DNA of 41,937 bases from assembly GCA_017303995.1 (NCBI GenBank), contig JAFLBE010000038.1, positions 1-41,937 on the forward strand, written 5' to 3'. This DNA is from Bacteroidota bacterium. Its GTDB lineage: Bacteria; Bacteroidota; JABWAT01. Numbering within the stretch: position 1 is the first letter of the stretch; the number at the start of each line of letters is the position of its first letter. The translations under genes were made by a program, and so were the position numbers. The notes below the pieces were generated by a model. That model worked only from the letters and a program-made list of their open reading frames with translations. It had not been told where the DNA came from and ran no database searches. Positions 4,900-8,494 of the stretch are shown here, one piece after another.

Positions 4900-6123
4900 A
4901 TGAGAAAGCTACTACTTCCCCTTTCACTAATTTCCTGTTTATTATTTACTGATGGGCGGGCACAAATTGTAACAACAGCCGCATATTTCCTAAGAATTCC
5001 AACTTCAGCTACAATTAACAGCATGGGTCGGTCTGGTGTAGCCCTTCAATTTAATGACCCTTTTCTGGCTCTTGACAATCCGGCTTTTATGGCTTCATTT
5101 TCTTCCCAAACAAACCTGGTTTACGGCAGTCAATATTCTACATTGTTTCCTGAACTTAGGGGAAACCTGAGTTTAAACAACCAGGCTGTTGCTGCCGGCA
5201 TTAATCTTGAATCGCTAACCAACCTACCGATGAAAGTACAATTTACCTATACACGACGTTTTTTTAATCTCGGAGAAAATGTAAGGACGACTGAAACTGG
5301 GGAAGAACTGGGTAGGTATTTTTCCTATGAAACTGCTAACAGTATAACTGCATCAGTAAGTTACAAATATGGTGCAGAATGGTTTTTGGGAGCTGGGTAT
5401 ACCCGCATTTATTCCCGGTTAAATCCATTCCCCGCAGATGAAGACAAAGATGGAATCTCGAGCGGAAATGCCTTTTCATTTGGTTTATTATCCCGGTTAC
5501 CGTTCCATGAATGGTATACATGGGCGGATACTGAAGATCAATTTTATCCGGAATATTTCTTAAATCTGGGAATGTCTGTACTCAATAAAGGTGACAAACT
5601 CATTTACATTGATCCAGTACAAGCAGATCCTTTACCTAAGATGGCAAAAATTGGCTATAGTGTTGTCTTTAATTATAACCTTAAATATGAAAATACATTT
5701 CTGAACCTGGCAAGTTTTCAATGGTCGGCAGATGTAAATGATCTTCTTGTAAAGAGAAGTTCAGAATTCACGATGGATTATATTGATTTTCCTGGTGATA
5801 TCAATGTTTTCAAACATGTGATCGGATTAAAAAAGGATGATGCTATTGAACTTCACCGTGGATACTCAATCAATTTACTGGAAACGGTTACCATCATGCA
5901 GGGGTGGGACGATCAGATTGGTTTTGGTGAGACTAAAACTTATGGACAGGTTTACAGCACCAGCGGACTTTTTAAATATCTGACAGGATTTACAGATAAT
6001 GTGATTTTAAAAAATGTATTAGCTGAAAGTGCAATAACTTACTCTGTTTCTGGAGTAAAAAGTCGCCTTACTACTGGAACCGTCTATAAAGGATTCTCTG
6101 CAAATTTCGGGTTTACTTTTTAG
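4900..6123 (+). CDS. PorV/PorQ-like outer-membrane beta-barrel protein
   Basis: A 407-residue protein with a signal peptide (MRKLLLPLSLISCLLFTDGRA) and an alternating beta-strand pattern ending in an aromatic residue (GFTF), typical of outer-membrane barrels. After the signal, FLRIPTSATINSMGRSGVAL followed by a stretch rich in N-P-A (LALDNPAF) matches the start of the PorV/UPF0164 family, whose usual form is F-L-x-I-P-x-A-R-x-x-G-M-G. In Bacteroidota, PorV and PorQ act in the type IX secretion apparatus, but many paralogues have no known role, and no other por/gld gene is present here. A separate promoter (TATCTTTG at 4797) and an AGGAG ribosome site (aaaaaggagcgtcaATG) suggest a monocistronic gene. 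Family level is likely; T9SS function is not shown. Confidence 0.72.
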   Translation: MRKLLLPLSLISCLLFTDGRAQIVTTAAYFLRIPTSATINSMGRSGVALQFNDPFLALDNPAFMASFSSQTNLVYGSQYSTLFPELRGNLSLNNQAVAAGINLESLTNLPMKVQFTYTRRFFNLGENVRTTETGEELGRYFSYETANSITASVSYKYGAEWFLGAGYTRIYSRLNPFPADEDKDGISSGNAFSFGLLSRLPFHEWYTWADTEDQFYPEYFLNLGMSVLNKGDKLIYIDPVQADPLPKMAKIGYSVVFNYNLKYENTFLNLASFQWSADVNDLLVKRSSEFTMDYIDFPGDINVFKHVIGLKKDDAIELHRGYSINLLETVTIMQGWDDQIGFGETKTYGQVYSTSGLFKYLTGFTDNVILKNVLAESAITYSVSGVKSRLTTGTVYKGFSANFGFTF

Positions 6124-6132
6124 GGAAATTCA

Positions 6133-6173
6133 TTTCACAGAGTTTCGGAGAGAAAAAACAGAGATACACAGAG
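6133..6173 (+). repeat. Left CAGAG arm of the GxxExxY unit
   Basis: Starts with TTTCACAGAG and continues with further CAGAG copies at 6158-6163 and 6167-6173. It begins 10 bp after the stop of the PorV-like gene and pairs with the right arm at 6694-6703. It contains no gene. Confidence 0.6.
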
Positions 6174-6188
6174 ATTCTTACGAACAAA

Positions 6189-6560
6189 TTAAAAACGAAA
6201 TCTCCTGATTCCATTTTTCAAAATGACCGAATTGAAATTAATCAGGAGACCAGTTGAAACCTTTGATAATTTCATATATGTTAAGATTTGAGCCTCATGA
6301 ACTTTTGAAAAACTTTCGACTGTTTTTAATTCAACGATAACCTGATTTTCAACTAAAAGATCAATCCGATACCCAAAATCCATTTTTATATCTTTATAAA
6401 GGAGGGGCATCGGCTTTTGTCGTTCAATTTTAAATCCGGCATTTTTCAGTTCATAAGTTAAACACTCTTCGTATGCCGATTCCAACAAACCTGGCCCCAA
6501 AGAACGATGAATATCAATTGAAAATCCTATTACTTTTTCTGTAATTTCGTTAATAAGCAT
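6189..6560 (-). CDS. GxxExxY protein, PD-(D/E)XK nuclease-like
   Basis: A 123-residue protein. The name-giving motif is G24-L-L-E27-S-A-Y30, within HRSLGPGLLESAY. A PD-(D/E)XK core is readable: Asp67 (YRIDLLVE), Glu77-Leu-Lys79 (VIVELK) and Q91-x3-Y95 (QILTY), the last as in RecB-type nucleases. Function is unknown in the literature I recall; nuclease activity is inferred from the fold motif. An in-frame ATG at 6659 would add 33 hydrophobic, Phe/Cys-rich residues with no family resemblance. I prefer the ATG at 6560 (MLINEITEKVIG), where family members usually begin, although its ribosome site is weak. The gene sits inside inverted CAGAG-rich arms, reads opposite to porV and in the same direction as fadE, and is more AT-rich than its neighbours. 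Confidence 0.85.
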   Translation of the reverse strand: MLINEITEKVIGFSIDIHRSLGPGLLESAYEECLTYELKNAGFKIERQKPMPLLYKDIKMDFGYRIDLLVENQVIVELKTVESFSKVHEAQILTYMKLSKVSTGLLINFNSVILKNGIRRFRF

Positions 6561-6666
6561 ATTTAAAATCCCGGGATTTTTTAAGCACAGGCAAAATAAA
6601 TAAAACCTATTAAAGAAAAAACCAAAACGACACGTGAGGAAAATCAGAATGAATCCCACTTAATAA

Positions 6667-6703
6667 AAATTACTCTGAATTACTCTGAATTTCCTCTGTG
6701 AAA
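6667..6703 (-). repeat. Right CAGAG arm of the GxxExxY unit
   Basis: On the minus strand this reads TTTCACAGAG followed by two TTCAGAG copies at about 10-bp spacing, mirroring the left arm. It ends 10 bp before the stop of fadE (6713), so it also occupies the place where a fadE terminator would be expected; no other terminator hairpin is visible there. Confidence 0.6.
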
Positions 6704-6712
6704 GAATAATCT

Positions 6713-8494
6713 CTACATATCGTATTTCCCCGATTCAATTTGGCGTTTGGCAATCCGGCGCCGTGCATCACGGGTATTGATGGGTGTCCAACGCATGAAT
6801 CTTTTCAAACCGGAAAGCAACATCTTCAATTCATCACCATCCGTCATGGATGCAATGGCATTTTTTGCATTGGCGGTGATTCTTTCAACTGAATCATTTA
6901 CATAAACTGAAACGGCATCAACCAGATGTCCGCACTTATCCAAACCTTCTTTTTCGATTCTTTTTTCTGTCCGGATAAGAGCAGATTCCATTCCGTAAAT
7001 ATCAATAATGATATCGGCAATGTTCATCATGATTTCCTGCTCATCGGCAATTTTATCCATGTATTTCTGAACGCCAAAACCTGCGCACATTAAAAATACT
7101 TTCTTGGCACCGGCAAGCACTTTCTTTTCAACTTCAAACAATTCACCGGTTCCCTCTTCCAATCCACCAATAGACATGAGTTCACCCTGAACTGCCATTG
7201 CCGGACCCATCAGGTTCAACTGACCTTTCATGGCTCTTTTCAGTAACATTCCGGGAATCAGCAGCCGGTTGATTTCATTGGTTCCTTCAAAAATCCGGTT
7301 GATCCGGCTGTCACGATACGGGCGATCCATCGGATATTCGGCACTGAAACCATATCCACCCAAAATCTGAACGCCTTCATCGGCCACATAATCCAAAATT
7401 TCAGAACCGGCAATTTTCAGGATTGAACATTCCACGGCAAATTCTTCAATTCCCTTCAGAACGGCTTCTGCACCTTCAGGAGTTGTTGCTTTTTTACCGG
7501 CTGTTGCCATATCGAGAAGTCCGGCAGTGCGGTATAACATCGAGTTACCCACATAATTCCGGATCGCCATTTCAGCGATTTTATGCTGCATGGCGCCAAA
7601 CGTAGAAATCGCCACACCAAACTGTTTCCGCTCATTTGCGTATTTGATGGCTTCGGTCTGAACATATTTCGAGGCACCCAGAGTTGATGCGCCCAATTTG
7701 AAACGACCCACATTTAGAATATTGAAGGCAATTTTGTGTCCTTTACCGACTTCACCCAAAACCCGGTCGAGCGGGATGATACAGTTATCCATCTTCACAA
7801 CCCGGGTAGAAGATCCTTTGATACCCATTTTCTTTTCTTCAGCACCCAGAGAGACACCCGGATCATTTCTTTCAATGATAAAACCGGTAAAATGCTCGCC
7901 ATCAACTTTGGCAAAAACGATGAAAACATCAGCGAATCCGGCATTGGTGATCCACATTTTTTCACCATCAAGAATCCAGGATTTACCGTCAGCAGATTTC
8001 ACAGCTTTTGATTTTGCACCCAACGCATCAGAGCCGGAACCTGCTTCGGTTAGCGCATAAGCACCCAGCCATTCACCGGTTGACAACTTCGGAATATACT
8101 TTTGCTTCTGTTCTTCAGTGCCGAAATAGAGAATCGGCAACGTTCCGATTCCGGTATGAGCACCCAGAGAAACCGCAAATGAAGCACCTTTGCCTGTATT
8201 TTCTGCAACAATGATCGACGTGGTTTTATCAACTTCCATGCCGCCGTATTCTTCAGGAATAGCAACGGAGAGAAGTCCCTGTTCACCGGCTTTTTTCATG
8301 ATACCGGCAAGAAGTCCTTCTTTTAATTTATCAATTTCATCGAGATGAGGAACGACTTCCTGATCAACAAAACTGGCAGTCAGTTCAGCAATCATTTTAT
8401 GTTCTTCAGAAAATTCTTCGGGGGTAAATACAAGGTTTTTGGGCGTTTCAGAGATCAGAAACTCGCCGCCTTTGAGGGTAAAAGTATCAGCCAT
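6713..8494 (-). CDS. fadE: Acyl-CoA dehydrogenase, long/very-long-chain type
   Basis: A 593-residue FAD enzyme for the first step of beta-oxidation (acyl-CoA to trans-2-enoyl-CoA). FAD/substrate motifs are YALTEAGSGSDALG (about 146-159) and KMWITNAGFADVF (about 179-191). The catalytic base is Glu403 in RIFEGTNEINR, the position used by MCAD/VLCAD-type enzymes. The 590-residue length, with about 170 residues after the catalytic domain, matches the VLCAD / Bacillus FadE class rather than the 380-residue short-chain class. It is the last gene of the minus-strand fad cluster, 110 bp after fadA, with a palindromic repeat in the gap. The electron acceptor (ETF) is not encoded in the window. The product is secure; chain length is inferred. 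Confidence 0.93.
   Translation of the reverse strand: MADTFTLKGGEFLISETPKNLVFTPEEFSEEHKMIAELTASFVDQEVVPHLDEIDKLKEGLLAGIMKKAGEQGLLSVAIPEEYGGMEVDKTTSIIVAENTGKGASFAVSLGAHTGIGTLPILYFGTEEQKQKYIPKLSTGEWLGAYALTEAGSGSDALGAKSKAVKSADGKSWILDGEKMWITNAGFADVFIVFAKVDGEHFTGFIIERNDPGVSLGAEEKKMGIKGSSTRVVKMDNCIIPLDRVLGEVGKGHKIAFNILNVGRFKLGASTLGASKYVQTEAIKYANERKQFGVAISTFGAMQHKIAEMAIRNYVGNSMLYRTAGLLDMATAGKKATTPEGAEAVLKGIEEFAVECSILKIAGSEILDYVADEGVQILGGYGFSAEYPMDRPYRDSRINRIFEGTNEINRLLIPGMLLKRAMKGQLNLMGPAMAVQGELMSIGGLEEGTGELFEVEKKVLAGAKKVFLMCAGFGVQKYMDKIADEQEIMMNIADIIIDIYGMESALIRTEKRIEKEGLDKCGHLVDAVSVYVNDSVERITANAKNAIASMTDGDELKMLLSGLKRFMRWTPINTRDARRRIAKRQIESGKYDM

Follow-up and report, generated by a model that had tools for sequence, protein, structure and literature searches.

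A GxxExxY nuclease gene enclosed by inverted arrays of short words: a possible selfish or mobile element of a kind not yet described

The gene, its arms, and its neighbours

The window, which is the whole stretch of 41,937 nucleotides analysed here (contig JAFLBE010000038.1 of a Bacteroidota genome, G000), contains at positions 6133–6703 a small gene enclosed by two inverted arms. The gene (6189–6560, minus strand) encodes a 123-residue protein of the GxxExxY family (TIGR04256 / PF13366 PDDEXK_3). The left arm (6133–6177, plus strand), which is the downstream arm in the gene orientation, carries the words TTTCACAGAG...GGAGAG...ACAGAG...CACAGAG, while the right arm (6670–6703, minus strand), which is the upstream arm, carries CTCTGAAT, CTCTGAAT, and CTCTGTGAAA. 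The outermost 10 bp on the left, TTTCACAGAG (6133–6142, plus strand), are the exact inverse of the outermost 10 bp on the right, CTCTGTGAAA (6694–6703, minus strand); the perfect inverted arms thus agree in letters and coordinates with the original prediction, made from the sequence alone. The inner words of both arms, ACAGAG (6158–6163) and CACAGAG (6167–6173) on the left and the two CTCTGAAT words (6673–6690) on the right, are degenerate. The left neighbour (4900–6123, plus strand) resembles the PorV/PorQ family, with 67.5 bits against a cut-off of 90, and the right neighbour (6713–8494, minus strand) is an acyl-CoA dehydrogenase gene of the FadE type, located on the same strand as the GxxExxY gene and upstream of it. 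The stops of both neighbours converge on the unit, each at a distance of 9 bp from the nearer arm, and the GC content of the unit is 31.7%, compared with 41.3% for the window.

Dinucleotide shuffling produced a perfect inverted match of 10 bp somewhere in the two flanks in 73 of 2000 trials (p ~0.04); with the match required to lie at both outer edges, 19 of 20000 shuffles had one (p ~0.001). The perfect arms of the window unit are, taken alone, weak to moderate evidence, and the question was therefore settled by comparison with other copies. The folded DNA of the unit is more stable than its shuffles (z -2.5), and a search of eight loci gave no match in Rfam. The left array recurs in a copy from a sister species (L041), whose arm 'tttcacggaggaaaattcagagtaatacagag' is matched by the right arm.

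Pairing of the arms across 193 copies

We collected 80 named relatives, the Nostoc loci among them serving as the cyanobacterial comparison, and about 107 further loci of the phylum, which gave 193 distinct genes with both flanks. The upstream flank of each was aligned to the reverse complement of its own downstream flank. The mean pairing score was 15.8 for own arms, compared with 9.7 when arms were exchanged between loci and 9.4 for control ORFs at the same loci (own arms versus control ORFs, p=2.5e-32). For the CACAGAG class, the exchange errs on the conservative side as a null because similar words occur at many loci. While 128 of the 193 copies exceed the 95th percentile of the controls, the arms of about one third, some with an intact gene, do not rise above the control level. 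A direct-repeat control of the flanks gave a mean of 19.8 and a median of 10 with a long tail, and it provides no clean null because the genes often lie within tandem runs of whole hairpins.

The typical arm is an inverted array of a ~7-bp word repeated every 8–11 bp, and such arms bracket most of the 193 copies in several phyla. Upstream, 308 words of class A (CRCNRAG) have the orientation expected of an inverted array and 98 lie on the wrong strand; downstream, the counts are 332 and 88. The spacing of these words peaks at 8–11 bp. Good-scoring arms are also present in Nostoc, Chloroflexi, Planctomycetes, Verrucomicrobia, and Ignavibacteria; they are missing from the one archaeal locus (Methanothrix, L113). 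The window copy scores 11, and it is a decayed, old copy of this widespread hairpin element.

Copies in the same genome and turnover of sites between sister species

According to the original prediction, GxxExxY genes occur in several copies per genome in similar repeat surroundings, and both points hold: G000 contains five, genomes elsewhere contain up to 12, and all five in G000, like most of the 193, lie between inverted word arrays, with the words differing. The CACAGAG word is shared by the window copy and a copy at C84:9078, the latter situated among gene-less hairpins of ~165 bp that follow one another in tandem; the copy at C84:91544 has the word CGCAGAG/CGCTGAG, and those at C66:13845 and C34:17120 have CAGGAT. 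The word TTTCACAGAG occurs 27 times in G000, compared with 6 times for the reversed word, and many of these occurrences are gene-less word arrays; the genome has 28 triple-word arrays, few of which adjoin a gene. The sister species G001 and G002 present a like picture with other words, such as CACGAAA, ACAGAA, CGCAAAG, and CGGATT.

Of nine gene sites across the three species, only two are common to G000 and G001, and from site to site the sister species have a gene, a gene-less hairpin, or nothing. The C66 site corresponds in G001 to two gene-less CAGGAT hairpins, and at the site on contig C11 of G002, both G000 and G001 have a hairpin that lacks the gene and is built of another word. At the G000 counterpart of the C11 site of G001 (L168, G000:C59:29200-30500), CACAGAG hairpins surround an OmdA/DUF1905 gene, a possible third cargo, where the sister species has a CACGAAA-type GxxExxY element. 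Further states of the gene were observed in three places: L046 (G002:C11:5253-5561) is a decaying copy with a seemingly frameshifted N-terminus and degenerate arms, L124 is a decaying copy with an internal stop, and L205 (G091:C4:68683-69764) is a tandem pair of GxxExxY genes, 99% identical, that share their arms, a recent local duplication.

The C34 site (L033) is empty in G001 (G001:C21:411570-412048). There, 13 nt resembling the first arm word remain. Directly after the stop codon the site keeps TCAGGATTTTCGG, which is absent in the outgroup G002 and is either an excision footprint or a word that was already there beforehand. Given this remnant and a similar edge at L029, deletion is as possible as insertion, and no target-site duplication was found at the empty site; loss and gain are indistinguishable here, and a gain event is proven at no site. 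An empty porV-fadE junction had also been proposed as a check, and none was found, the unit being present in G001 and the junction rearranged in G002, where fadE has a different neighbour.

These comparisons bear on the proposal that the unit is a non-autonomous mobile cassette. The gene-less hairpins found in the genome and its relatives do look non-autonomous, but for the gene-bearing copy the term is probably wrong.

The GxxExxY protein

The window protein is a full member of its family, scoring 149 bits against TIGR04256 (curated cut-off 35 bits) and 144.9 bits against PDDEXK_3 (PF13366). Its GxxExxY motif is G24-x2-E27-x2-Y30, and its nuclease residues are E27, D67, E77-x-K79, and Q91-x3-Y95; the positions predicted earlier for D67, E77, K79, Q91, and Y95 were correct. 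E77, K79, and Q91 are present in all 193 copies, the set of D67, E77, K79, and Q91 in 192–193 of 193, and Y95 in 186 of 193, and every member with a residue at the position has E27, D67, E77, K79, and Q91. The AlphaFold2 model (m6484660cca87) has a pLDDT of 94.8, and its closest fold in the PDB is Cas4 SSO0001 (4ic1; E 5e-4, with a TM-score of only 0.5), followed by lambda-type exonucleases; no solved relative was found by sequence search. By modelled fold and conserved active-site residues, the protein is predicted to be a RecB/Cas4-type PD-(D/E)XK nuclease; a structural check for a PD-(D/E)XK fold with arranged active-site residues had been proposed earlier, and the model supports that fold. 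It shares with Cas4, RecB, and lambda exonuclease (4ic1, 1avq) the PD-(D/E)XK core with the Q-x3-Y motif; unlike Cas4, it has only 123 residues, lacks an Fe-S domain, and is encoded outside a CRISPR locus. Between the window gene and its G001 ortholog, dN is 0.028 and dS 0.371 (dN/dS 0.076), and the low dN relative to dS indicates that the protein is under purifying selection.

A RecB/Cas4-like fold would also suit a solitary defence nuclease held in repeat-rich cassettes for shuffling, and a part in defence had been among the roles first proposed. PADLOC, however, yields only weak Cas4 matches, and neither partner genes nor a defence island accompany the gene at the loci read; it stands alone between neighbours that are mostly housekeeping (agmatine deiminase, acyl-CoA dehydrogenase, RadA). 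The defence role is unsupported, and we regard it as very improbable.

We considered and dropped phage or plasmid cargo, since GxxExxY is absent from the 50,697 phage records, present in 8 of 72,556 plasmid records, and found at one locus in IMG/VR. In the literature searched, there is no report of transposition, binding, or cleavage by GxxExxY proteins. Passages naming the family in that literature do not mention flanking arrays, and no description of the association between gene and arrays was found in a search of openly accessible journal papers.

Association of the words with the protein and of the arrays with the gene

The class of the arm word follows the protein phylogeny. With copies taken as exchangeable and shared descent left in, 29 changes of word class suffice on the protein tree, compared with at least 61 in 500 label shuffles; protein distance and word similarity between genomes are correlated with a Mantel r of -0.24 (null minimum -0.05); and the closer words belong to the nearest protein in another genome rather than to own-genome paralogs by 66:32. 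Judging from these sequence comparisons, word and protein travel together, which descent of whole elements could yield without any binding. At an orthologous site, the agmatine-deiminase junction, in three species (L031, L043, and L283), the gene is kept and the arms differ; own pairs score 19, 17, and 23, and swapped pairs 8.5–14, indicating that both arms changed together.

We searched 118 genomes of the phylum with the pattern CACAGAG-CRCNRAG-CRCNRAG, allowing gaps of 2–6, and obtained 176 triple-word arrays in 23 genomes, mostly without a gene, and none for the reversed pattern. The GxxExxY gene is present in 58 of the 118 genomes, with up to 12 copies each, and arrays were found in 22 of these 58 against 1 of the 60 without the gene (Fisher p=2e-7, uncorrected for kinship). 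In the sole array genome without the gene (G100), the word is spaced differently. These results bear on whether the arms are ordinary terminators or UTR hairpins that flank a small gene by chance. The window unit, with its converging stops and its folding stability, would fit such a reading, but most copies lie within tandem operons rather than at converging gene ends, and the arms are arrays of A/G words that change together, track the branch of the gene, and are absent at control ORFs and swapped pairs. With gene-free genomes nearly free of arrays as well, chance flanking by terminators is scarcely plausible.

Wherever GxxExxY copies from different genomes are at least 90% identical, they occupy the same site, which implies that movement is infrequent on that scale. 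Among pairs that are 80–90% identical in different genomes, the outer flanks are non-homologous in 16 of 25.

Four-helix-bundle and Y1 transposase genes in the same genomes

Genes for four-helix-bundle proteins (TIGR02436, S23) in gene-bearing genomes are bracketed likewise with other words. At these loci (L173-L182, L184, L185, and L309-L332, from G000-G003 and other genomes of the phylum), the arrays lie between protein genes and consist of 7–8-bp words that are different at nearly each locus, such as GGGTTAC, GTAGGTA, and AGTCAGG. In the pairing test, 35 S23 loci scored 15.6 against 9.2 (p=1.8e-17). The TAACTGA arrays of Beggiatoaceae and Cyanobacteria (PMC4679880) resemble S23-type words.

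Transposases of the RAYT/Y1 (HUH) type are also resident, with seven Y1_Tnp genes in G000, and RAYTs are thought to move REPIN hairpins (PMC3116915; TnpA-REP, PMC8266576); such an enzyme could move the present hairpins with the GxxExxY gene as a passenger. The flanks of 12 Y1 genes (L295-L306) do give the same signal in the pairing test, but they carry their own GC-rich REP palindromes, such as gtctgctttagctgacgg and tagctccgtaggagcga, and no CACAGAG-type arrays. These expected palindromes serve as a positive control and argue against a RAYT as the mobiliser, as do the tracking of the GxxExxY tree by the word class and the co-occurrence of arrays with the GxxExxY gene, and we consider mobilisation by a RAYT highly unlikely.

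Orientation and transcript context

At loci with tandem neighbours, the gene is in sense orientation relative to the host operon by 130:12 (p=3e-26), and no more than 25 nt separate the end of the 5' arm from the start codon at 67 of the 74 loci whose pairing exceeds the 5% limit of swapped arms. Both observations suit an element that acts at the RNA level, in which the arms serve only as an mRNA hairpin (for IVS-like insulation, for processing by RNase III, or for autoregulation in which the start codon is sequestered), while the nuclease acts elsewhere and the whole is vertically inherited and not mobile. The joint variation of the arms at an orthologous site is also in its favour, as is the 23S intervening sequence (IVS) of Coxiella, in which an S23 ORF lies in a hairpin loop excised by RNase III (PMC4990558). 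Against it stand the gene-less hairpins, which far outnumber the genes and lie at unrelated sites, the turnover of gene content between sister species, and the non-homologous outer flanks of similar proteins. We judge a purely RNA-level role unlikely, though it is the most credible of the alternatives.

A candidate mechanism and its relation to known systems

Mobilisation of the hairpin element by its own nuclease is the mechanism we prefer, with modest confidence, on the basis of the comparisons above. The element consists of two inverted arrays of a ~7-bp word, about one word per helical turn, with what is probably a minimal RecB/Cas4-type nuclease encoded in the loop. The nuclease may recognise the word arrays of its own element at the DNA level, probably when they form a cruciform or are single-stranded during replication or repair, and would cut or trim them, upon which copying of the hairpin or its re-insertion between genes could follow. 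Hairpins without the gene would be mobilised in trans. Since read-through from the upstream gene would yield a folded transcript in which the start codon lies next to the 5' arm, the host may tolerate the insertion and make little of the protein, as with the 23S intervening sequences that RNase III removes.

The element works most like REPIN/RAYT systems or 23S intervening sequences and belongs to neither. With REPIN/RAYT it shares inverted, word-bearing hairpins around a single-domain DNA enzyme, words matched to that enzyme, and gene-less inverted hairpins scattered between genes. In contrast to REPIN/RAYT, the enzyme here is a putative PD-(D/E)XK nuclease (TIGR04256) instead of a Y1/HUH transposase, and each arm comprises 2–4 A/G-rich non-palindromic words instead of one GC-rich palindrome. 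In the case of the Coxiella 23S IVS, GACAGAT heptamers precede the start of the S23 ORF, and the sequence has been termed a selfish element and long suspected to be mobile (PMC4990558). An ORF in a hairpin loop, short tandem heptamers by the start codon, and sense orientation in the transcript are common to both, but the window unit lies between porV-like and fadE genes instead of in 23S rRNA, encodes a predicted nuclease instead of a four-helix bundle, and has other words. TAACTGA heptamer arrays, which occur between genes in Beggiatoaceae, Cyanobacteria, and Bacteroidetes and whose origin is unexplained (PMC4679880), are likewise intergenic heptamer runs just upstream of starts with a patchy distribution between phyla; however, they are direct repeats of one word, are linked in that work to no gene family, and have been read as translational control.

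The finding holds up and extends beyond what the original prediction described, and the interpretation offered there is supported in part. Taken together, the GxxExxY gene and its word-array hairpin have the look of a selfish or mobile element of a kind not described before. We tentatively suggest, short of holding it probable, that GxxExxY proteins may be self-contained mobilisers of clade-specific word-array hairpins and thus a new class of selfish elements, with S23 proteins and 23S intervening sequences as a parallel second class.

GxxExxY genes are common, with many copies in some genomes, and have no known function, and CACAGAG-, CACGAAA-, and CAGGAT-type repeats are dispersed in environmental genomes without explanation. 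The link between gene and repeat gives both a testable meaning, that of a nuclease and its cognate repeat, and the matched pairs of protein and word are natural material for binding and cleavage assays. The architecture of the S23 loci, in turn, connects the old puzzle of the 23S intervening sequences with hairpin elements that form a genome-wide class.
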